Shown here: in pieces, positions 36,457-49,129 of the stretch
Numbering within the stretch: the first letter of the stretch is position 1
Layout: each line of letters begins with the position of its first letter
From: Clostridia bacterium
Lineage (GTDB): Bacteria > Bacillota > Clostridia > Christensenellales > Aristaeellaceae
Direction: 5' to 3'
DNA: 64,000 nucleotides
Assembly (NCBI GenBank): GCA_017464305.1
Contig: JAFUDS010000024.1
Location: 215,041 to 279,040, forward strand
The notes under the pieces: model-generated
Seen by the model: only the letters and a program-made list of their open reading frames with translations
Told to the model about the DNA's origin: nothing
The model's database searches: none
Program-made: the position numbers and the translations under genes

Positions 36457-38028
36457 ATGGATCGGGAGACGAAGCGCCCGGCCCGGGGAAAGTGGGGAGC
36501 CATGGTTCAGCCCGCGGCCTGGTGGGCATTTTGCGGTGCGCTGCTCTTCGGCCTGGTGGCCCATGGCATGGCGCTGCTGAATAAGTATTCCTGGCATGAC
36601 GATATTTTTTCGCTCTTTCTGCAGGGGGAAACCATCACCTCCGGGCGGTGGATGCTGCATGTGCTGGGAAAGCTGGAAATTCTGGTCTTTGGCGATGGAC
36701 ACTTCAGCCTTCCCCTGATGAATGGGCTGTTTTCCCTGCTATGTATTGGCCTCTCTGCCGGGCTCCTGGCCATGGGGCTGCGGTTGCGCTCCCGGGGGCT
36801 GGGGGCGCTGCTGGGCTCTGTCATGGCGGCCTTCCCGATGCTGGCTGCCCTGTTTGGCTTCATGTTCGCGGCGCCCTATTACATGCTGGCGCTGCTGATG
36901 ATGGTAGCGGGGGCACTGCTGATCGGCGGGAAGCATTCCTGGGGCGCCAAGGTGGCGGGATGCCTGCTGAGCGGATGCGCGGTGGGGGTTTATCAGGCCT
37001 TTCTGCCGCTGCTGCTGACGGTGATCCTGCTGGCGGATATTCGAGCCATTGGGGAGAAGGAGGATGCCCTCGCCCTGGGAAAGCGATTGCTGCTGCAGGC
37101 CGTCTGCGTGGCGGGCGTCATGGCGATTTACCTGGCGGGTAGCCATTACTTCCTGAATAAATATGACCTGGAGATGAGCCCTTATATGGGCTTGAATCAG
37201 GCGGACACCCTGCCTCTGACGGTATATCTGGAGCGGGCAGGCCGGGCCTATGGGGAATTCTTCCGCCCGACCCGGAACGCTCCCTGGGATATGTATCCGC
37301 AGCATGCCTATTACCTGTATTACTTTGCCATGGGGGTCAACCTGGCCCTGGGCGCGGCGGCGGTGATTCGGGCCTGGAAGCAAAGCCGGGGAAAGGCTTT
37401 GCTGCTGGCGCTGCTGCTGGGGCTCTATCCCCTGGGCTGCAATTTCATTTTCGTGCTTTCCGCGGAGATTCACGGCCTGATGGTCTATGGCCAGGTGATG
37501 CATTTTGCGCTGTGCATCCTCCTGGTGGATCAGGTCCGGCTCCGGCCGGGCCGATGGACCCGGTGGGCCAGCAGCGCGGTGACGGTGGCGCTGGGGCTGC
37601 TCTGCGTCATGTATGCCAGGTATGATAATGAATGCTATTTCAAGACCGCCTTTTATCAGCAGGAGGCGATCTCCTGGGACACGGCCCTGGTGACGCGGAT
37701 CAAGTCGGCCCCTGGCTTCCGGGATGAGCTGCCCGTGGCCTGGGTGAACCGCTATGAAATGCAGGACACGAGCCTGTACAATATGGAGGAGATGAAGGGC
37801 CTGAGCCTGACGGGGTACGAAGAAACCCTGGAGGAGTATGTCAATAACTGGGCCTGGGAAAGATTCCTGCAGCGCTGGTGCGGCTTTGACCCGGAGACAG
37901 TGGACGAGGCAGAAGTGAAGACCTGGCCGGAGGTGCAGGCCATGCCCAGTTACCCCGCGGCGGATTCCATTCAGGTGATTCATGACGTAGTGGTGGTGAA
38001 ATTTGGCGAAGGGAGCGAGGGAACGTGA
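36457..38028 (+). CDS. GtrII-type glucosyltransferase membrane protein (copy 2)
   Basis: A 523-residue GtrII family protein, paralogue of 23484 and 38025. Matching features: HGMALLNKYSWHDDIFSLF, GRWMLHVLGKLE, GCAVGVYQAFLPLLLTV, ARYDNECYFKTAFYQQEAIS and the end RWCGFDPETV...WPEVQAMPSYPA. About ten to twelve helices with a C-terminal soluble domain of about 100 residues. ATG 36457 follows GGAAGGAGGGG and comes one base after the previous stop. Its end overlaps copy 3 by four bases (GTGA). Confidence 0.87.
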   Translation: MDRETKRPARGKWGAMVQPAAWWAFCGALLFGLVAHGMALLNKYSWHDDIFSLFLQGETITSGRWMLHVLGKLEILVFGDGHFSLPLMNGLFSLLCIGLSAGLLAMGLRLRSRGLGALLGSVMAAFPMLAALFGFMFAAPYYMLALLMMVAGALLIGGKHSWGAKVAGCLLSGCAVGVYQAFLPLLLTVILLADIRAIGEKEDALALGKRLLLQAVCVAGVMAIYLAGSHYFLNKYDLEMSPYMGLNQADTLPLTVYLERAGRAYGEFFRPTRNAPWDMYPQHAYYLYYFAMGVNLALGAAAVIRAWKQSRGKALLLALLLGLYPLGCNFIFVLSAEIHGLMVYGQVMHFALCILLVDQVRLRPGRWTRWASSAVTVALGLLCVMYARYDNECYFKTAFYQQEAISWDTALVTRIKSAPGFRDELPVAWVNRYEMQDTSLYNMEEMKGLSLTGYEETLEEYVNNWAWERFLQRWCGFDPETVDEAEVKTWPEVQAMPSYPAADSIQVIHDVVVVKFGEGSEGT

Positions 38029-39551
38029 GGGTAGCGCAGTGGGCTCGGAAACGGCCGCAGCTGGCGGTGACTCTGCTCAGCGCCTTGCTCTTCGGCCTGG
38101 TGGCCCATGGGATGGGGCTGCTGAACAAGTTCTCCTCCCATGACGATATTGTGTCCCTCTTCGAGCTGGGAACCACCATCAGCTCTGGCAGATGGATGCT
38201 GCATGTGATGGACTGGCTGGAAACGATCCTCTTTGGACCAGGGCATTTCAGCCTGCCCCTGACCCACGGACTGTTTTCCCTCCTGTGCATTGCCCTGGCG
38301 GCTTGCCTGGTGGTGGATCTGCTGGGGCTAAAAAACCTGGGCTGCTGTGCCGGCCTGGCAGGAATCATGGTGGCCTTTCCGGCCATTGCGGGCCTGTTCG
38401 GATATATGTACACCCTGCCCTATTATGCGCTGGCCCTGCTGATGATGACACTGTGCGGCTGGCTTCTCTGCAAGGGAAAGGGATGGGGCAAGCTGCTGGC
38501 CATCGCCCTGGGTTGTTGCTCTGTGGGGGTGTATCAGGCTTTTTTGCCCCTGCTGCTCAGCCTACCGCTGCTGTATGATGTTTCGATTCTGCTGAACGGG
38601 GAAGGGGAGCTCAAATCCTTTTTCCGCCTGGCGGCGATGCAGGTGGCCTGTATGCTGGGGTTGATGGTCTGCTATTTTGCGGCGACCCGTTTTTTCCTGG
38701 CTAAGTTTCATCTGGAGCTGAACAGCTACATGGGCATTGATCAAATGGGGTCCACTAGCCTGGGCACCTATTTGCTCCGGGCGGCCCAGGCCTATCGGGA
38801 GTTCTTCTGGCCCCAGCGCAATGGAATAGCGGATGTGTTCCCGATGCATCTGTTTTATCTCAGCCGGGGAATGGTGCTCCTGGATGGCGTGTTTGCCCTT
38901 CGACTGCTGCTCCAGAAAGGAAAGCAGCGCCTCTCCGTCGCATTGCTGCTGGCGCTGCTTCTGGGGCTCATGCCCTTGGCTTGCAATTTGATTTATGTCA
39001 TGGCGGGCACGGTGCATGGACTGATGACCTATGGCCAGGTGATGCAGGCGGCGCTGTTCCTCCTGCTGGCGGAGCGGCAGGAGTTCCGTTGGCCCGGAAT
39101 CCAAAGGGGAGTCAGGGGATTCGCCGCGACGCTGCTGGGCCTGGCCTGCGTGATGTATGCCCGGTATGATAATCAATGTTATTTGAAGACGAATTTTCAG
39201 CAGCAGCAGGCCATCTCCTGGATGACGACCTTGGCCACGCAGATCAAATCCACGGAGGGATATCGAGATGATCTGCCGGTGGCTTTCATGAATCAGGAGC
39301 AAATTTCGGACCAAACCCTGTATCATATGCAGGAGCTGGACTTTATCCTCCTGACGCCCTATGACGGCACCCTGGGGGACTATTTGAACTCCTATGGCTG
39401 GCGAAAGTTTATGGAGCGCTGGTGCGGCTTCAGCCCTGCCTATGCCAATGAAGCGCTGTATGAAAACCTCCCGGAGGTACAGGCCATGCCCCATTACCCG
39501 GACGATGGATCCATTCAGAAGCTGGGGGAGGTCATTGTGGTTAATTTCTAA
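38025..39551 (+). CDS. GtrII-type glucosyltransferase membrane protein (copy 3)
   Basis: A 508-residue GtrII family protein. It has HGMGLLNKFSSHDDIVSLF: the HDD is kept but the preceding Trp of copies 1 and 2 is Ser. Other shared stretches are GVYQAFLPLLLSL, LELNSYMGIDQMGSTSLG, ARYDNQCYLKTNFQQQQAIS and ERWCGFSPAYAN...LPEVQAMPHYPDDGSIQ. The GTG start at 38025 overlaps the stop of copy 2. It ends the long plus-strand run of the glycan locus before a terminator at 39622. Confidence 0.87.
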   Translation: MRVAQWARKRPQLAVTLLSALLFGLVAHGMGLLNKFSSHDDIVSLFELGTTISSGRWMLHVMDWLETILFGPGHFSLPLTHGLFSLLCIALAACLVVDLLGLKNLGCCAGLAGIMVAFPAIAGLFGYMYTLPYYALALLMMTLCGWLLCKGKGWGKLLAIALGCCSVGVYQAFLPLLLSLPLLYDVSILLNGEGELKSFFRLAAMQVACMLGLMVCYFAATRFFLAKFHLELNSYMGIDQMGSTSLGTYLLRAAQAYREFFWPQRNGIADVFPMHLFYLSRGMVLLDGVFALRLLLQKGKQRLSVALLLALLLGLMPLACNLIYVMAGTVHGLMTYGQVMQAALFLLLAERQEFRWPGIQRGVRGFAATLLGLACVMYARYDNQCYLKTNFQQQQAISWMTTLATQIKSTEGYRDDLPVAFMNQEQISDQTLYHMQELDFILLTPYDGTLGDYLNSYGWRKFMERWCGFSPAYANEALYENLPEVQAMPHYPDDGSIQKLGEVIVVNF

Positions 39552-39660: not shown

Positions 39661-40983
39661 TTAAAGCCCTCCCTGCTCCGGGAAGGGCTTTGTGATGGAT
39701 TGATTTACATGATACAGCCCGCACATCAGCGCCATGGTGGAGACGATGAAGGCCTTGCTGGCCAGCCAGTAATGGATATAGGCGTGGTTCTTGGTCAGGA
39801 CGCACCAGGCAAAGGGAATGCAGGCGATGAGCAGAAAAGGCACCAGCTGCCGGAGGCAGGCCTGGCGGGCGGCGCCTTCCCGAGGCGTCTTCCGCAGGAG
39901 ACGGAGGATCAGGAAAAGCAGATAGCCCAGGAAAAGCAGGGTGAAGGGGGTATTGAAGAAGAAGCGGATGTTCCCCCAGAGGGTAGCGCCCAGGGTGACG
40001 ACCTCGCCATAGGCCTCATCCCCGGTCCGCATCAGGAAGGTGGACAGCCCTTCCTCGAACACGTTAAAGCCGGTGAGGGCAGTGCCGATGACCCATTTCA
40101 TCACCCACAGGAGTCCATAGCCCATGCCCCAGAAAAATCCCAGCCGGAGCAGGCGCAGCAGGGCGTCCCGAAGCTTCCGGTCCGGGGCCAGATAGAAGGC
40201 CACCACCAGGGGCAGCCCCAAGGCGGCCATGGGATAGGTCAGTACATCCCAGTAGGCGGTGCAGATGCCGGAAAACAGGAAGACCAGATATTCCCGGCTT
40301 TGCATGCGTCCCTTTCGATGGAGGAGCAGCAGCGTCAACACGGATAGCAGGGAAATATAGAACCCCAGGGAATATTCCAGGTTCAGGCCCATCACCGCCG
40401 GCGCCAGCATGGCGTAGGAGATCAGGAGGGGCAGAATCATACCCCTGGGCCGGGAGCCGCTCCGCCACATCAGGAGGCAAAGCAGCAGCACCAGCCCGAC
40501 CTGGAGCGCCATGTTCAGCTGGCGAATGCGATGATAGTCAAGAACCTGGAGCAGCAATCGGTAGATGACGCTGTATCCGTGCCAATAGCGGGAGTAGGGC
40601 TCGAAGCCCTCATACTCCTCCCCCTCGATATAGTGCTTCACAAAAATTTGGACGGGGTCGAACTCTCCCATGACGCCGTGATAGGACATCATGGCGTATT
40701 CGACGGGGTGTTCCGAGGAAACGTTGCCGGCCATCAGCAGCATGATGGCGTCGGAATAGTTATCCAGCTTGCTGGAACACCAGGTGTGCAGATTGGGAAA
40801 TTTCCCGGTGGCCTGGAAGATATCCGCGGAGCTGTCCAGGTGCTGATCCATAGGCTCTGCGGGCAGGAATTCGGACAGGATCAGCAGCCCCGTGCCCACC
40901 AGGGCGGAAAGGAGAATCAGCAGCAGGGACTGAGCGACATGACGCCAGAATTTTCCTTCGTTTTTAGGCTGGGTGGCTTCCAT
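39661..40983 (-). CDS. Multi-pass membrane protein next to GtrB-type GT2
   Basis: A 440-residue membrane protein with about ten helices. The N-terminus has a helix followed by a long extracytoplasmic loop (from SEFLPAEPMDQHLDSSAD, with NYSDAIMLLMA and YSRYWHGYSVIYRLLLQ), then helices. That arrangement, and its place right after a polyprenyl-phosphate GT2 whose gene overlaps it by 20 bases, suggests a GT-C-type transferase that uses the GT2 product. I do not recognise the family. A hairpin overlaps its last codons and stop (39663-39691). Confidence 0.65.
   Translation of the reverse strand: MEATQPKNEGKFWRHVAQSLLLILLSALVGTGLLILSEFLPAEPMDQHLDSSADIFQATGKFPNLHTWCSSKLDNYSDAIMLLMAGNVSSEHPVEYAMMSYHGVMGEFDPVQIFVKHYIEGEEYEGFEPYSRYWHGYSVIYRLLLQVLDYHRIRQLNMALQVGLVLLLCLLMWRSGSRPRGMILPLLISYAMLAPAVMGLNLEYSLGFYISLLSVLTLLLLHRKGRMQSREYLVFLFSGICTAYWDVLTYPMAALGLPLVVAFYLAPDRKLRDALLRLLRLGFFWGMGYGLLWVMKWVIGTALTGFNVFEEGLSTFLMRTGDEAYGEVVTLGATLWGNIRFFFNTPFTLLFLGYLLFLILRLLRKTPREGAARQACLRQLVPFLLIACIPFAWCVLTKNHAYIHYWLASKAFIVSTMALMCGLYHVNQSITKPFPEQGGL
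39663..39691 (-). terminator. Hairpin over the stop codon of the 39661 gene
   Basis: AAAGCCCT/AGGGCTTT plus CCC/GGG with a one-base bulge; on the minus strand it ends CTTTAATCT. The stem includes the last codons, so it is a compact terminator. T-run is short. Confidence 0.45.
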
Positions 40984-41929
40984 TGTGATTCGTCCCTTTC
41001 CTTGGCTCCGCCGCTTCGCCGCGGATGATTTCCGAAATCAGATAGCGAGGCCGATCCTTTAATTCATTGTAGATTTGGGCCAGATAGTATCCAATCAGCC
41101 CCAGGCTCAGCATCAGCACGCTGCCGATGAGCAAAATCAGCAGGATCACCGTGGTAAAGCCCTCCACCGCCGTGCCGGAAAAATAGCGCACCAGGGTTTG
41201 AATCCCCATGATCAGGGCCAGCGCCAGCACGATGCCGCCGCAGATGGTAATCAGCTGCAGGGGCGCGGAGGAAAAGGAGGTAATGTTCCGCACGGCGTAG
41301 CTGGTCAGAGCCCGGGAGCTCCATTTCGAGGTGCCGGCCTCCCGCTCCTGCACGTCGAATTCCACAGAGGTGGTTTTGAACCCGACCCAGGAGGAAAGGG
41401 CCCGGAAGAAGGCGTTCTTCTCGGGCAGGGACAGGATGGCATTCACCGCCTTCCGGTCCATGAGCTTGAAATCGGAGGCCCGGGACATATCGATCTTCGT
41501 AGCGTTGCTCATGAGCCGATAGAAGGTGCCCGCCGCGAAGCGATGCAGCACGGATTCGTTTCCCCGGGTGCGCTTGACGCCCTCGATAACCTCATATCCC
41601 TCCTGCCAAAGATGCAACATCTGGATCAAGGTCTCCGGCGGATGCTGCAGGTCGCAATCCATGACGGCGCAGCAGTCCCCCTTCGCCTGGGCCAGGCCGG
41701 CCATGATGGCGGCCTCTTTGCCAAAGTTGCGGGAGAAGTTGACGCCCACCACATGGGGATTGACCTGGGCCTGATGCTGAATCCTTTGCCAGGTGGCGTC
41801 CTGGGAGCCATCATTGACGAAAACCAGCTCGTAATCCATTTCTTCGGCCTGGAGCGTATGACCGATGCGCTCTACGGCCCGGTCGATGTTTTCTTCCTCG
41901 TTGTAGGAAGGCAGAATGATGGAAATCAT
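40964..41929 (-). CDS. Polyprenyl-phosphate glycosyltransferase, GtrB-type GT2
   Basis: A 321-residue GT2 with two C-terminal membrane helices, the layout of GtrB/bactoprenol glucosyltransferase. Motifs: IILPSYNEEENIDRAV, FVNDGSQDATW, MDCDLQHPPE (DXD), SRASDFKLMDRK and the end LIGYYLAQIYNELKDRPRYLI. It moves a sugar (often glucose) from a UDP donor to undecaprenyl phosphate. ATG at 41929 follows AGGAGG. It lies 92 bases downstream of the pectinesterase gene on the same strand, with a hairpin between. It overlaps the next gene by 20 bases. Confidence 0.92.
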   Translation of the reverse strand: MISIILPSYNEEENIDRAVERIGHTLQAEEMDYELVFVNDGSQDATWQRIQHQAQVNPHVVGVNFSRNFGKEAAIMAGLAQAKGDCCAVMDCDLQHPPETLIQMLHLWQEGYEVIEGVKRTRGNESVLHRFAAGTFYRLMSNATKIDMSRASDFKLMDRKAVNAILSLPEKNAFFRALSSWVGFKTTSVEFDVQEREAGTSKWSSRALTSYAVRNITSFSSAPLQLITICGGIVLALALIMGIQTLVRYFSGTAVEGFTTVILLILLIGSVLMLSLGLIGYYLAQIYNELKDRPRYLISEIIRGEAAEPRKGTNHNGSHPA

Positions 41930-42021: not shown

Positions 42022-43455
42022 CTATTGCAGGGACTGCTGAAGGGCATCGACCAGCAGCTCCAGACCGGCGGCGTCCTCCGGGGAGAAGCGATCCTGCACA
42101 GGGCTGTCGATATCCAGCACGCCGACGATACGATCCTCCTGCCGCAGAGGAAGGACGATCTCCGCCCGGCTGGCGCTGTCGCAGGCAATGTGGCCGGGAA
42201 ATTGATGGACATCCGGTACCACCAGGGTTCTGCCCTCCGCCCAGGCGGCGCCGCAGACGCCCTTTCCCCGGGGAATCCGGATGCAGGCGGGCTTGCCCTG
42301 GAAGGGCCCCAGCACCAGATCCTCTCCCCGAACCAGATAAAACCCGGCCCAGTTCAGATTTGGCAACTGATCGTAGATCAGCGCGCTGGCGTTGCTCAGC
42401 AGGGAGGCAAACCAGCCCTCCTCCGCGGCGAAGGCCCGCAGCTGCTCCGCCATCAGGGCATAGTCCGGGCCGGGGGCGGCGGGCTGCCAGCCATCCTCGC
42501 CCCCGAGAACCGAGGGAAGGGTGATGGCTCCTGCTTCCTCCGGGGTCAGGCGCTTTTCATGCGCATTCCGCGGGGATAGATCGGCGCGCACGCCGGTGGT
42601 TTCCCATTCGCCGTAGCGGTCCGTGACGCCCCGGGTTTCGTCCCAGTCCGTGAAGCCTTCTGGTGCCACGTGGGCGTCCATGTCGCAGCGCAGGAACAGG
42701 GTGGCCGACCCCGCCCGCCAGGGGCGGCCCAAATAAGCCTGGCCCTCCGGGCAATTGCCGGAGAGGCGGCAGCGATGGAACACGAAGCCATAGGGCTGGG
42801 AGGCATGGGTGTTGGCGGCGGTGTACCATCCCCCCCGCTCCCCCATAAACAGGTCGCAGCCCTCGAACCAGCATCGATAGGAGCCGAAGATGAAATCCAC
42901 GTCCCCCTCGATGTAGCAGCGCTCAAAATATTGCCGGCTGTGGGAGGGGTGCCCATCCTGCACCAGGGGAACCTGCTCCGCGGTGCCCTGCCGATCCCCC
43001 AAATCCGCCACCACGTCCGGAATCCGCAGAGGGCCGCAGTACAGGGTGTCCTGATGGGCAATCATCCGGCAGCCCCGCCAGAGGCCCCGGTCTCCCGCCG
43101 CGTAGACTGCCACCGCCTGGCCCACCTCGCGGCCATCGCCGGCGTCGTTGCGGATGGTGAGGTTTTCCACGGTGACATCCGCTGCGTTCACCATCAGCGT
43201 CCAGGAGCGGAAGGTGGTCCGCTCTGTGCCGTCTGGATGAAGCTCCAGGGCGAAGGAGGACCAGGTGAGAATGGTTTCCGCCGCGTCTTCCCCGACCAGG
43301 CAGGCGCCCTCCTTGTTGACGATGACTCGCTCGTGATAAATTCCCTTCCGGACGAAAACCTTCCGATCTCCCTCCCGCGGGTCCGCAGGCAGCGCGTCGA
43401 TGGCTGCCTGGATGGTGGAAAAGGCTCCGCTGCCATCCTTTGCTACGATGATCAT
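42022..43455 (-). CDS. Pectinesterase fused to free methionine-(R)-sulfoxide reductase
   Basis: A 477-residue fusion. Residues 1-320 are a pectinesterase (PF01095), which removes methyl esters from pectin: IIVAKDGSGAFSTIQAAID, the oxyanion GQAVAVY, catalytic HQDTLYCG and GDVDFIFGS, and YLGRPWRAGS. Residues about 335-477 are a GAF-fold free methionine-(R)-sulfoxide reductase: Cys391, Cys401 and Cys425 keep the 10- and 24-residue spacing of E. coli fRMsr Cys84/94/118 (GKPACIRIP, GVCGAA, HIACDSASR). LSNASALIYDQLPNLNWAGFYLV and VLDIDSP also fit. No signal peptide, so both act inside the cell. One continuous frame, no internal start between domains. ATG at 43455 follows AAAGGAAATGAG. Confidence 0.9.
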   Translation of the reverse strand: MIIVAKDGSGAFSTIQAAIDALPADPREGDRKVFVRKGIYHERVIVNKEGACLVGEDAAETILTWSSFALELHPDGTERTTFRSWTLMVNAADVTVENLTIRNDAGDGREVGQAVAVYAAGDRGLWRGCRMIAHQDTLYCGPLRIPDVVADLGDRQGTAEQVPLVQDGHPSHSRQYFERCYIEGDVDFIFGSYRCWFEGCDLFMGERGGWYTAANTHASQPYGFVFHRCRLSGNCPEGQAYLGRPWRAGSATLFLRCDMDAHVAPEGFTDWDETRGVTDRYGEWETTGVRADLSPRNAHEKRLTPEEAGAITLPSVLGGEDGWQPAAPGPDYALMAEQLRAFAAEEGWFASLLSNASALIYDQLPNLNWAGFYLVRGEDLVLGPFQGKPACIRIPRGKGVCGAAWAEGRTLVVPDVHQFPGHIACDSASRAEIVLPLRQEDRIVGVLDIDSPVQDRFSPEDAAGLELLVDALQQSLQ

Positions 43456-43625
43456 TTTGTCTCATTTCCTTTCTATGGAGCGGGAAACGGGGGCCTCCTG
43501 CCAAAAAGCAGAAAAGCATTTTGCTGCTGACGAGGAGGAAGAGGGTGCCCTCAGGCGTGCTCGCGCCGAGGGAGGGGCTTTCGGTCTCGTTTCCCGGAAT
43601 CTTTGCTGCTTCAAAGATTGCCTTG

Positions 43626-43866: not shown

Positions 43867-45495
43867 ATGGCTGAATCCAGCGCCGCCACCCGGCGGTATG
43901 GATGTCCCGCCTGCGGCGGCGGGCTGCAGTATGATATCGACTCGGGGAAGATGAAGTGCGATCGATGCGATACATTGACCTCCCTGGCGGAGCTGCCCCG
44001 GGAGGAGCCGGGGGACATGCTGGAGGTGAATGAGTTCCATTGCCCCCAGTGCGGCGCTGCGGTGTATTCCACGGACACGGAGGTGACCAGCTTCTGCAGC
44101 TTCTGCGGCAGCGACGTGGTGCTGACGGGGAAGCTGGGGCAGACCCGGCGGCCCGCCTATATCGTGCCCTTCCAGGTGACCCGGGAAAAATGCGAACAGG
44201 CCTATCGGGATCATTTGAAGGGGTATCTGCTGGCGCCCTCGGCGCTGAAAAAGGCGGAGACCGTGTCCCATTTCCGGCCGGTGTATATTCCCTTCTGGTC
44301 CTATCGGGTGGAGGCCCAGGGCGTGGCGCGCCTGGAGGGCAAGAAGAGCTATACCCGGGGGGATTATCGCTATGACGAAACCTATGATCTGACCATGGAC
44401 GCCGTCATCAGCCAGAAGGGCATTCTGTACGACGCCTCTACCGCCTTCGAGGATGAAACTGCCGCCCTTTTGCAGCATACCATGCAGCAGGCGGAGCCCT
44501 TCCACCCCGCCTATCTCAGCGGGTTTTACGCCCAGGGGGCGGACGTGCCGGGAGAGACCTATCACCAGGAGGCGGCCGCCAGCGCGGTCCGGCTGTTTAT
44601 GGACCAGGTGAAGGAAGAAACGGGCATGGATTCCGTGGAGATGAAGGGCAATATTGAGGAAAACTTCGGCCTGCCGGACGCCCGCTATCAGGAGCAGCTG
44701 GTGATGATGCCCGTGTGGCTCCTGGCCCATCGCCAGGGGGATCGAGTGGTTTATACCGCCATCAATGGCCGCAGCGGCGAGGTGGTCTGCGATGTGCCGG
44801 TCAGCAATGGCAAGGTGGCGGGGGTGACCCTGGCGCTGGCTGCCGGGCTGTTTTTCCTGCTGCATCAGTTTGTGACCCTGAAGCCAGAGCTGCTGATGGC
44901 CCTGTGCGCGGTGGTTTCCCTGATCATTCAGTATCAATTCTCCGGGGCCCAGAAGCTGCTGTTCAATCGGCGCACCCGGGCCTATGAGCCGGACTTCGCC
45001 CTGGGGCAGCGGGCCTTCGTGGGGCCGGCTCAGGCCTTGCTGCGGAAGGGGAAGGAAGGAATTTCTACCCGGGGCACGGGGGAATCCGCCCTGGAGAAGC
45101 TGAAGGGCCTGGGGCTGATTCTGCTCGCCGTTCTGGGCTATGCTGGCATTCAGGCCCTGTCCATCCTGGGCTCCGCCTTTGGTACCGCCGGGGGTCGGAG
45201 GATGATCGTGCTGCTGGCGCTGCTGGGGGTTCTGGTGACCATGGGGGTCCATTTGGCCCGCCGGGCCGGAAAGGAGAGCCGAGGCCCCTTGTGGCCCCGG
45301 GCCTTGTCGCTGCTGGCTTGTCTGGCGGGGCTGGTGAGCGTGCTTTCCGGCCAGGCGGAGGATCTGATCTATTATGGTTGCGCGGCGGCCATGCTGATTT
45401 CCGCCGGCATTGAGCTGGTGATGATCAATCGCGCCCATAATGAATATGCCTCTCGACCGACGCCCTTCTTTGGGGAGAAGGAGGCTGCAGCATGA
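43867..45495 (+). CDS. Zinc-ribbon membrane protein (TFIIB-type ribbon)
   Basis: A 542-residue protein. Two zinc ribbons at the N-terminus: CPAC/CDRC (about residues 13-37) and CPQC/CSFC (about 59-80). A long soluble region follows (PVYIPFWSYRVEAQG, YHQEAAASAVRLF), then five or six helices from about residue 320. This architecture occurs in Firmicutes next to TPM-domain proteins, as here: the TPM gene start overlaps its stop (ATGA). ATG 43867 follows ACGGAGGAGAAG. Function unknown; a membrane complex linked to envelope or protein quality control is a guess from the pair. Confidence 0.75.
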   Translation: MAESSAATRRYGCPACGGGLQYDIDSGKMKCDRCDTLTSLAELPREEPGDMLEVNEFHCPQCGAAVYSTDTEVTSFCSFCGSDVVLTGKLGQTRRPAYIVPFQVTREKCEQAYRDHLKGYLLAPSALKKAETVSHFRPVYIPFWSYRVEAQGVARLEGKKSYTRGDYRYDETYDLTMDAVISQKGILYDASTAFEDETAALLQHTMQQAEPFHPAYLSGFYAQGADVPGETYHQEAAASAVRLFMDQVKEETGMDSVEMKGNIEENFGLPDARYQEQLVMMPVWLLAHRQGDRVVYTAINGRSGEVVCDVPVSNGKVAGVTLALAAGLFFLLHQFVTLKPELLMALCAVVSLIIQYQFSGAQKLLFNRRTRAYEPDFALGQRAFVGPAQALLRKGKEGISTRGTGESALEKLKGLGLILLAVLGYAGIQALSILGSAFGTAGGRRMIVLLALLGVLVTMGVHLARRAGKESRGPLWPRALSLLACLAGLVSVLSGQAEDLIYYGCAAAMLISAGIELVMINRAHNEYASRPTPFFGEKEAAA

Positions 45496-46363: not shown

Positions 46364-46392
46364 TTGCCAAGCGATGGCTTTTCCGGTAAAAT
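46364..46392 (+). promoter_or_regulatory. Promoter of the rhamnose operon
   Basis: -35 TTGCCA (46364-46369), 17-base spacer, -10 TAAAAT (46387-46392). Leader to the rhaB start is only about 22 bases. No obvious operator repeat. Confidence 0.65.
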
Positions 46393-46420
46393 GGAGACCA
46401 AAGAGAAGGAGGCTGTGGAC

Positions 46421-47689
46421 ATGGATCGATATCTTGCCATAGACATTGGCGCGTCCTCCGGGCGGCATATCGTCGGCTGGGAGGAAGGCGGCCAATTGCG
46501 GACGGAGGAGGTTTTCCGCTTCCCGAATGGGGTGACGGAGCAGGAGGGGCACTTGGTCTGGGATCTTTTCACCCTGCTGGGGTACGTAAAGGAAGGGATT
46601 GAGAAGGCCCAGGCCGCGTATCCGGACATCGTCAGCCTCTCGGTGGACACTTGGGGGGTGGACTATGTGCTGATGCAGGGGGAAAAGGAGGTCCTGCCCG
46701 GCTATGCCTATCGGGACAGCCGCACGGAGGAGATCATCCCCCGGGTGCATGAGGCTGTGCCCTTCTCCCGGCTGTATGAGCATACCGGCATTCAGTTCCA
46801 GCCCTTTAACACCGTTTATCAGCTGATGGCGGATAAGGCGGCGGGCCGGCTGGAGGGGGTGACGGATTTCCTGATGCTGCCCTGCTGGCTGATGTACAGG
46901 CTGTGCGGGGTGAAGGCCCATGAGTATACCAACGCCACCACTGGCGGGCTGGTCAGCGCCAAAACCGGGGAATACGACGGGGAGCTGATCAGCGCCTTAG
47001 GGCTGCCGAAGCATCTTTTCCCCAAGCTGCGCCAGCCCGGGGAGGTCATCGGGGAATATCAGGGCATGCAGGTGCTTCTCTGCGCCACCCATGACACGGG
47101 CAGCGCCGTGGAGGGCATCCCCATGGCGGAGGACGCGCCCTACATCTCCTCCGGTACCTGGAGCCTCCTGGGGGTGAAGACGGAAAAGCCTCTGACCGAT
47201 GCCGCCAGCCAGGCCGCCAACTGGAGCAACGAGGGGGGCGTGGGATACAACCGGTATCAGAAGAATATCATGGGCATGTGGCTGGTGAACCGGCTACGGG
47301 CGGAGCTGTGTCCCGATACCCCCTGGGACCAGATCATCGCCGAGGCTCAGGAGAAGCATTTTGATCACCTGGTGGACGCCAATGATCCCATCTTCCTGGC
47401 CCCGGAGAGCATGAAGGCCGCCTTTGACGCCCGGCTGCCCCATCCGCCCAAATGCGTGGCGGGGTATTTCCGCTGCGCCTATCGCAGCCTGGCCCAGAGC
47501 TATCGACAGGCCATCGCGGAGATGGAGCACAACACGGGCCGGAGCTATGACGCCCTGTATATCGTGGGCGGCGGGGCGAAAAACAGCTGGCTGAACCAGC
47601 TGACGGAGGAGGCCACGGGGAAACGGGTCATTGCCCTGCCCATCGAAGCCACTGCCCTGGGTAATTTGCATATCCAAATGAAGAAATAG
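46421..47689 (+). CDS. rhaB: Rhamnulokinase (FGGY kinase)
   Basis: A 422-residue FGGY sugar kinase that phosphorylates L-rhamnulose. Phosphate-binding DIGASSGRHI is at the N-terminus; LSVDTWGVDYVL, ATHDTGSAVEGIP (catalytic Asp) and SGTWSLLGV are rhamnulokinase stretches, and the ATP-binding VGGGAKNSWLNQLTEEATG is near the end. It stops soon after IEATALGN, some 40 residues earlier than the classical ~470-490-residue enzymes, so it may lack the last helices or belong to a shorter branch. ATG 46421 follows AAGGAGG. The isomerase gene begins 15 bases later. Confidence 0.9.
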   Translation: MDRYLAIDIGASSGRHIVGWEEGGQLRTEEVFRFPNGVTEQEGHLVWDLFTLLGYVKEGIEKAQAAYPDIVSLSVDTWGVDYVLMQGEKEVLPGYAYRDSRTEEIIPRVHEAVPFSRLYEHTGIQFQPFNTVYQLMADKAAGRLEGVTDFLMLPCWLMYRLCGVKAHEYTNATTGGLVSAKTGEYDGELISALGLPKHLFPKLRQPGEVIGEYQGMQVLLCATHDTGSAVEGIPMAEDAPYISSGTWSLLGVKTEKPLTDAASQAANWSNEGGVGYNRYQKNIMGMWLVNRLRAELCPDTPWDQIIAEAQEKHFDHLVDANDPIFLAPESMKAAFDARLPHPPKCVAGYFRCAYRSLAQSYRQAIAEMEHNTGRSYDALYIVGGGAKNSWLNQLTEEATGKRVIALPIEATALGNLHIQMKK

Positions 47690-47704
47690 AAGGAGGAGTT
47701 TGCC

Positions 47705-49129
47705 ATGTTAGTCAATACCAAAGCCCGGATCGGCGTTTTCGCCATCGCGCTGGGCGCCTATCTGCCTCAGTTCCCCGGCCTGGTCCCCGAATTCCAGGGC
47801 CAATACGAGGTGTTCAAAAAGCGGATTCCGGACAGCGTGGAGCTGATCGACGGGGGCATCGTTACCACCAAGGAGCAGTCCATGGCCGCGGGGGATAGGT
47901 TCCGGGCCGCGGATGTGGATCTGGTGATTCTGCAGCTGCTGACCTATGCCACCAGCTATAACATGCTGCCCGCCGTGCGGGATCTGGATGTGCCGGTGGT
48001 GCTGGTGAATGTGCAGAAAAAGAAGGCCCCGGATTATGCCAACACGGATAACGAAACCTGGCTGGGCACCCTGTACGCCTGCGGCGCGGTGGGCGAGATG
48101 GTGGCGGACCTGGAGCGGGCCGGCAAGCGGCACGCGGTGATCACCGGTGTGGAGGAGGGCGGAGACCCGGCCCTGCAGGCGGAGATTGAGGATTGGTGCC
48201 GGGCGGCTCAGGTGCGGCGCCGCTTCCGGGATACCAACATCGCCCAGATCGGCCGGCCCTATCCCGGCATGATGGATCTGTACATCGACGAGACGAATCT
48301 GTATCACCGGATGTGGCTGTATACCAAGCAGTTCGACTGGGAAAAGATGTGGGCCATCGCCGATGATATCACCGACGAGGCGGCCATCCGGGCCAAGGCG
48401 GAGGATATTCTGGATACCTTCGAGATCGAGGGGGGCGCCACGGTGGAGACCGTGTGGGACATGGCGAAGTATGTGGTGGCCTTCGAGCAGTGGGTGAAGG
48501 ATGAGCAGCTGGGCTTCGTGGCCAGCCACTACGATGGCTTCGCCCAGGGCGTGGCCGGGAAGCTGGATTCCATGCTGATTCCTGCCTTCTCCATGCTGAT
48601 TAAGCAGGGAACCGCCTGCGCCGTGGAGGGAGACATCAAGGTGGCCATGGCCATGGGTATCCTGAAAACCATCGCCGGCACGGGCCAGCTCAGCGAGATG
48701 TACTCCATCGACTTTGATGAGGACATCTGCATCATCGGCCACTCCGGCTCCGGCGACGCGGACATCTCCCAGGCCCGGAAGCCCTCCATGAAGATCGTGC
48801 CCGTGTTCCACGGCAAGACCGGCGGCGGATACCTGACCCAGTTCTATCCGCCTACGGGCAGCGATATCACCTTCCTGGGCATCACCCAGGACAAGGACGG
48901 CCACTTCAAGTTCGTGGTGGCGGAGGGGGTCAATGAGGAAGGACCCATCTTCATGTTTGGCGACACTAACATGCGGATGCGCTTCTCCATCAGCGCCCGG
49001 GAATTCTGCAACCGCTGGAGCGAGGCCGGTCCCACCCACCACATGGCCGCGGCCGTGGGCCGGCATATTGACACCATCCTGAAGGTGGCGAAGATATTCA
49101 ATGTGCCGGTAGATGTGATTACGAGATAA
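47705..49129 (+). CDS. L-fucose/L-arabinose isomerase-family protein
   Basis: A 474-residue member of the FucI/AraA-type sugar isomerases, which interconvert aldose and ketose with Mn. N-terminal RIGVFAIALGAYLPQFPGL, MKIVPVFHGKTGGGYL, and a C-terminal MRFSISAREFCNRW...GPTHHMAAAVGRH with likely metal-binding histidines fit the family. It sits between rhaB and rhaD, where an L-rhamnose isomerase is expected; the classical RhaA fold is not present in this window. It may therefore supply L-rhamnulose, or act on L-fucose or another 6-deoxy sugar. ATG 47705 follows AGGAGG. A structured element lies after it. Confidence 0.82.
   Translation: MLVNTKARIGVFAIALGAYLPQFPGLVPEFQGQYEVFKKRIPDSVELIDGGIVTTKEQSMAAGDRFRAADVDLVILQLLTYATSYNMLPAVRDLDVPVVLVNVQKKKAPDYANTDNETWLGTLYACGAVGEMVADLERAGKRHAVITGVEEGGDPALQAEIEDWCRAAQVRRRFRDTNIAQIGRPYPGMMDLYIDETNLYHRMWLYTKQFDWEKMWAIADDITDEAAIRAKAEDILDTFEIEGGATVETVWDMAKYVVAFEQWVKDEQLGFVASHYDGFAQGVAGKLDSMLIPAFSMLIKQGTACAVEGDIKVAMAMGILKTIAGTGQLSEMYSIDFDEDICIIGHSGSGDADISQARKPSMKIVPVFHGKTGGGYLTQFYPPTGSDITFLGITQDKDGHFKFVVAEGVNEEGPIFMFGDTNMRMRFSISAREFCNRWSEAGPTHHMAAAVGRHIDTILKVAKIFNVPVDVITR

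Follow-up and report, generated by a model that had tools for sequence, protein, structure and literature searches.

Pectinesterase–fRMsr fusion gene

The window, by which we mean the whole 64,000-nucleotide stretch of DNA that was analysed, carries on its minus strand at 42022-43455 a gene that appears to encode both a pectinesterase and a free methionine-(R)-sulfoxide reductase (fRMsr). The locus thus raises the question of whether this join is real and, if so, whether the two enzymes belong together by function or were united by an event of gene joining. As a whole explanation, we consider it probable that a lineage-specific gene joining produced a bifunctional fusion protein with two independent activities.

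The minus-strand frame runs uninterrupted from an ATG at 43453-43455 to a stop codon and comprises 477 codons plus the stop, corresponding to a polypeptide of 477 amino acids. The plus strand of the same segment contains only shorter overlapping open reading frames, and its frame of the same phase is interrupted by a stop. A likely ribosome-binding site, AAAGGAAA, can be read from the sequence upstream of the start codon (43465-43472, minus strand). Both enzymes are detected in the translated frame by Pfam and phmmer, in agreement with the original prediction of a single 477-codon frame holding the two.

Codons 1-326 (42478-43455, minus strand) specify a domain of the CE8 pectinesterase type. 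The Pfam profile PF01095 matches with 157.9 bits against a cut-off of 27, in two stretches of which the best covers residues 2-140, and a phmmer search against the PDB aligned residues 6-287 to the pectinesterase 8tne (1.3e-44), with 8tms and the carrot pectin methylesterase (PME) 1gq8 also matched. Alignment with 1gq8 places the motifs QD (residues 135-136, in QDTLY), DFIFG (187-191) and GRPW (243-246) on those of the carrot enzyme, and residues D136, D187, R244 and W246 of the fusion fall within these aligned motifs. We take the catalytic residues of carrot PME to be D136, D157, R225 and W227 (an aspartate pair, an arginine and a tryptophan), and the residues of the QD, DFIFG and GRPW motifs presumably have a catalytic role in pectinesterases. 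By profile and motifs, the N-terminal half is accordingly classified as a CE8 pectinesterase, with a predicted demethylating activity. The domain resembles CE8 pectin methylesterases such as 1gq8 and 8tne in its PF01095 match and in the QD, DFIFG and GRPW motifs, but it differs from them in carrying an extra C-terminal domain, in having no apparent signal peptide, and in scoring far below the NCBIfam equivalog cut-offs for PemA and PemB (98.3 and 40.5 bits, respectively, against 700 for each). Inspection of the sequence thus agrees with the earlier view that a signal peptide is missing, and the matches in relatives begin at the same first residues as the fusion. The protein is probably cytosolic.

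Codons 331-477 (42025-42465, minus strand) specify the fRMsr part, a GAF domain recognized by PF01590 with 46.2 bits (cut-off 22.4) over residues 366-474. Residues 331-476 match PDB proteins of the fRMsr type, foremost 3ksf (1.8e-47 to 9.9e-49) and E. coli YebR, 1vhm (1.1e-43 to 5e-45), and further 3mmh (3e-33), 8dgd and 5hl6. It had been claimed that this half is a complete fRMsr with cysteines 391, 401 and 425 positioned as in the E. coli enzyme, and these three indeed align with the cysteines of 1vhm and 3ksf, in an alignment that is free of gaps. We assume that the conserved cysteines of E. coli fRMsr are residues 84, 94 and 118 and that the three aligned cysteines have a catalytic role. 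The isolated domain matched no NCBIfam family at an E-value of 0.001. As judged from its GAF and PDB matches, the C-terminal half is a complete GAF-type fRMsr, predicted to reduce free methionine-(R)-sulfoxide. It shares the full-length GAF domain and the three aligned cysteines with fRMsr/MsrC proteins (1vhm, 3ksf), whereas, in contrast to stand-alone fRMsr, it is attached to another enzyme and lacks its own start codon at the expected position.

Junction between the two halves

Many stand-alone pectinesterases of related genomes stop just past a conserved LGG.DGW.P motif, which shows that the join sits at the natural C-terminus of the pectinesterase, as the original prediction had stated for the LGGEDGW region. 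Stand-alone fRMsrs, for their part, start near the residue aligned to Asp331 of the fusion. The intervening stretch, Q324-P325-A-A-P-G-P330-D331, is short, so that little seems to have been lost beyond one stop and one start codon. Its central codons 327-330 (A-P-G-P; 42466-42477, minus strand) form the linker. Within codons 301-345 the sole in-frame ATG, GTG or TTG codon is that of Met335, and inspection of this segment revealed no ribosome-binding site ahead of it that is comparable to AAAGGAAA.

Occurrence in a second assembly

The same fusion, with the same neighbouring genes, is present in a second assembly, contig JAFUFB010000006.1 of genome G061 (isolate RGIG4436, Roe_deer_Omasum). The DNA of the two is 97.25% identical over an alignment of 11,432 columns; the junction codons are identical, the linker is unchanged, and the stop in G061 lies one codon later. 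The two copies of the fusion gene are separated by 31 synonymous and 4 non-synonymous changes. The pectinesterase half has a dN/dS ratio of 0.029 and the fRMsr half one of 0.064, compared with values of 0.026-0.16 for eight neighbouring genes; these low ratios indicate that both halves are maintained by purifying selection. A missed stop or frameshift near the junction had been named as the finding that would overturn the fusion; the identical junction in a second assembly together with purifying selection makes a missed stop or a misassembly very unlikely. About 9% of the synonymous sites of the fusion gene differ between the two lineages that have it in common, which makes it too old for a sequencing accident. 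The suggested gene joining is supported, but it is not recent in the sense of such an accident.

Distribution and locus

A full-length match to the fusion occurs in two of the 45 genomes of the genus, both from closely related gut Clostridia, and likewise in two of the 308 genomes of the family among the matches listed, which were ordered by their scores. When GTDB 220 genomes, among which the window's own may be missing, were scanned with a pattern-based method, the best 80 loci included the fusion in at least one genome (G061). In the other 43 genomes of the genus the pectinesterase and fRMsr, where found, are in separate places; fRMsr is present in 37 of the 45. No second fRMsr besides the fused one was found in either fusion genome, but these are 68.6% and 83% complete, so a separate gene could have been missed.

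The fusion gene is followed by a gene for a family 2 glycosyltransferase (40964-41929, minus strand) and preceded by a divergent gene for a possible zinc-ribbon protein (43867-45495, plus strand), for which the Pfam match is below the cut-off. When flanks of a few kb were compared at 75 loci, the window's neighbours were absent except at L038 and L157, both of G061. A check of synteny had been proposed, with separate genes at this locus in relatives as the critical outcome: separate genes do exist, but neither adjoins the window's neighbours within the flanks compared, and a pair of separate genes at the same locus was not found among these 75 loci. In G007, the counterparts of these two flanking genes, glycosyltransferase and upstream gene, are on separate contigs, and the pectinesterase is on a third. 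No relative was seen with pectinesterase and fRMsr genes that are adjacent but separate; the nearest spacing in other family genomes, by eye and among the matches listed, is about 33 kb, in G021.

Origin of the two halves

The two halves differ in their affinities. That of the pectinesterase half is to the genus itself, to which it is native, with identities of 78, 77 and 72% to its counterparts in G026, G018 and G007, respectively. The fRMsr half is only 50-63% identical to the genus fRMsrs with which it was compared, whereas 32 of 33 genus fRMsrs have their best match within the genus, at 68-100%. Its identity to fRMsrs of other genera of the family is 64-68% (G976, G949, G942, G875), the highest value of 68% being found with G875.

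The fRMsr half was excluded from a genus clade of 30 rows in two trees, with support of 100/96 and 100/99. With family genomes added it grouped with other genera, mostly g526 (82/89), while in the tree without them its sister, with support of 95/85, was the SAP-DUF6434 fusion L166, whose genome belongs to a different family; L166 was placed elsewhere once the family genomes entered the tree. These trees are based on 146 columns and contain many unresolved forks, the bootstrap of the tree with family genomes was not settled, and the branch of the fRMsr half is fairly long (0.40-0.45), with a placement that is unstable between trees. Three further members of the genus (G062, G022 and G029) have fRMsrs that likewise fall outside the genus clade, which suggests that lateral movement of fRMsr is common here. 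From its position outside the main genus clade and its proximity to other genera, the fRMsr half was probably acquired by lateral transfer from a different genus within the family, although rapid evolution after the fusion could mimic such an origin.

Other fusions of fRMsr and of pectinesterase

Of the 204 family genomes that gave an fRMsr match, at least 15 carry fRMsr in an in-frame fusion, the window genome (G000) and G061 included; this is a lower bound, as 35 loci of the genus and 40 other loci of the family were inspected, the latter chosen mostly for their long frames. Four of the 37 genus genomes with an fRMsr have it in a fusion, of three kinds in all (35 of the 37 loci were inspected; the frames in the remaining two, G005 and G025, are 167 and 141 amino acids long). 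Genome G026 encodes a glycoside hydrolase family 2 (GH2) enzyme in frame with fRMsr (L136:2503-5745; G026:C6). The best NCBIfam name for its GH2 part is exo-beta-1,4-galactosidase, at 504 bits and below the cut-off of 1500, and the enzyme may act on pectic galactan. Another gene, which by eye resembles SMC, follows 139 bases after its end.

A GNAT-fRMsr fusion occurs in G010, and the reverse order, fRMsr-GNAT, in G1029. Fusions of dUTPase to fRMsr are present in G847 and G849 (L229:1020-2258 and L230:707-1771). MsrA precedes fRMsr in G972 and G974 (L223, L225) and follows it in G939, G940 and G947, identified by Pfam, and in G950, G956 and G958, identified by tblastn with 86-94% identity to the MsrA part of G939 (loci L215, L217, L218, L219, L234 and L235), so that the order differs between genera of one family; the protein at L096 is the same as that of G947 and was counted once. 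In relatives of some of these, the partners adjoin fRMsr in another frame: dUTPase in G848 (L246), from the same genus as the fused G847 and G849, and MsrA in G976, G977 and G978 (L236, L244, L249), as opposed to the fused G972 and G974. Such adjacent, unfused partners suggest a route in which adjacency is followed by loss of a stop codon. As no relative has the pectinesterase and fRMsr genes adjacent but separate, this route is extended to the window fusion by analogy.

Further fusions come from outside the family or from genomes of unknown place. They comprise GNAT-fRMsr (L080), SAP-DUF6434-fRMsr (L166, 785-1858), a hexapeptide protein joined to fRMsr (L168), and fRMsr-MazG, detected at L169 by Pfam and at L170 by tblastn. 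In addition, an fRMsr-like GAF domain is fused to an AMP-binding ligase at L172:2564-4654 (by Pfam) and at L173 (by tblastn), whereas the frame at L174 ends early. In L172-L174 the first of the three cysteines of the fRMsr-like GAF domain is apparently missing, as seen by eye.

The pectinesterase, too, has other partners. At the same C-terminal point it is fused in many relatives to GH88-family (PF07470) hydrolases or to SGNH/GDSL esterases (L053, L057, L058, L071; L008, L012, L041, L049-L052, L054, L055, L059, L060). These partners were identified by Pfam at L053 and L041 and by tblastn at the others, L060 being cut by a contig end. They are carbohydrate-type enzymes, unlike fRMsr. The other fRMsr fusions are in-frame like that of the window but differ in their partners, those with MsrA being functionally related.

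Several candidates were rejected. The long frames in G942 (C32, 1130 amino acids), G951, G1034, G1014, G899, G900/G885 and others have upstream parts that are out of frame or codon-poor, as judged by eye and codon score, and for G257 a frame of 163 amino acids was obtained in place of the 518 first indicated. Two enzymes served as controls for the fusion rate in the genus: D-aminoacyl-tRNA deacylase, present in 43 of 45 genomes, and dehydroquinase II, present in 37 of 45. By eye, no fused domain was seen in the upstream frames of 4 of the 43 and 8 of the 37, chosen for their long frames. Given the small size of this control and the relatedness of the genomes, no fusion rate was drawn from it. 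A rule by which fRMsr would lie beside pectin genes was not seen among the immediate neighbours, inspected by eye, of 29 fRMsrs called from 33 loci of the genus.

Proposed mechanism and alternatives

In the mechanism that we favour, an fRMsr gene, whose donor was probably a different genus within the family, would have become attached in frame to the natural 3' end of the genus's own pectin methylesterase gene, the stop of the pectinesterase and the start of the fRMsr being lost on joining. Both domains have retained their active-site residues and would work independently of each other. The N-terminal half may remove methyl esters from (oligo)pectin imported into the cell, and the C-terminal half may reduce free methionine-(R)-sulfoxide, presumably with thioredoxin. 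Expression of fRMsr would now proceed from the promoter and ribosome-binding site of the pectinesterase. In this explanation we infer both activities, the cytosolic location, the lateral origin of the fRMsr, the order of events and the absence of functional coupling. Between the two options originally offered, joining is favoured by the occurrence in two of 45 and two of 308 genomes, by the different affinities of the halves and by the other partners of fRMsr, while a link of pectin use with oxidative stress found little in its favour. The fusion thus resembles one among several independent joinings of fRMsr to other genes more than a system dedicated to stress during pectin use.

There is some chance, though a small one, that fRMsr behaves as a portable module for repair, settling time and again on unrelated enzymes, and that in this pectin-using genus it did so at least twice on carbohydrate-active ones (the pectinesterase and the GH2 enzyme) because these profit from methionine repair at their place or dose. 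A sharper form of the gene-joining explanation, which we regard as unlikely, is that a small, often moving fRMsr gene lands by an expressed gene, fuses to it through loss of the stop codon and borrows its expression by promoter capture, with its function unchanged. The diversity of partners, the dUTPase and MsrA partners known both adjacent and fused, and the variety of neighbouring genes in much of the genus are in line with such hitch-hiking. However, a downstream neighbour of about 200 amino acids is common to 6 of 29 genus fRMsr loci, implying that fRMsr has a stable location in some members of the genus; moreover, the MsrA fusions look functional rather than random, and the comparison of whether fRMsr fuses more often than other small genes covered two control families of a single genus.

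Functional coupling, in which pectin use exposes the cell to oxidants or stress of another kind while both enzymes are kept at one place and dose by being fused, is in our view quite unlikely. It would agree with purifying selection on the fusion and with the finding that G026, which has the closest pectinesterase outside the fusion genomes, carries the possibly pectin-related GH2-fRMsr protein, a second and independent fusion. Against it, the other partners of fRMsr are unrelated to pectin use (GNAT in the genus; MsrA, dUTPase and GNAT in the family), stand-alone genus fRMsrs have by eye varied neighbours with a few carbohydrate enzymes but no recurrent pectin gene, and in other family genomes the pectinesterase and fRMsr are apart, by eye and among the matches listed. 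GAF domains widely serve as sensors, and it is conceivable on this general ground that the domain is a regulatory or dimerising module, such as a redox sensor, of the pectinesterase and no longer a reductase; we consider this very improbable in view of the three retained fRMsr cysteines, the gap-free alignment with 3ksf and 1vhm, and the lack of any other detected fRMsr in either of the incomplete fusion genomes. An artefact, be it a missed stop, a frameshift or a chimeric assembly, is hardly credible even for a window assembly as fragmented and incomplete as this one (51 contigs, 68.58%), given the same junction in a second assembly that matches over 11.4 kb with mostly synonymous differences.

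Relation to described fusions

Published fusions of methionine sulfoxide reductases include MsrAB, MsrBA, MsrA-Trx-MsrB, MsrA-Grx, MsrB-AANH and MsrB-ThyX, as given in the portion of PMC6211008 covered here. They resemble the present protein in having methionine sulfoxide reductases as partners, in some cases of surprising proteins (AANH, ThyX), but involve MsrA or MsrB, and that same portion names no fRMsr fusion. One paper in the literature searched, PMC12542729, contains both of the terms 'fRMsr' and 'pectin'. No pectinesterase-fRMsr fusion is named in the titles and abstract openings of the open-access literature searched, to which extent the earlier statement that no such fusion has been described holds. 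Within that literature the pairing thus appears to be undescribed; it newly combines, in a single lineage, enzymes that are each known.

The range of fRMsr partners, from the sensible MsrA to dUTPase, acetyltransferases and sugar-active enzymes, suggests that the pairing of domains by fusion need not imply a shared pathway, and calls for caution in the 'Rosetta stone' inference of function from fusions. The fusion also lends itself to testing how expression may be acquired by a small gene that passes from one lineage to another. Should the two fusions with carbohydrate-active enzymes prove functional, they would indicate that using plant polysaccharides in the gut carries an oxidative cost.

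Further genes in the window

On the plus strand at 36457-39551, the window contains a tandem pair of genes that by eye resemble membrane proteins and are about 50% identical to each other. On the other side of the fusion gene, at 46364-49129 (plus strand), a gene for an FGGY-family sugar kinase is followed by a gene that weakly matches L-fucose/L-arabinose isomerase, and the two are possibly a sugar-use pair.
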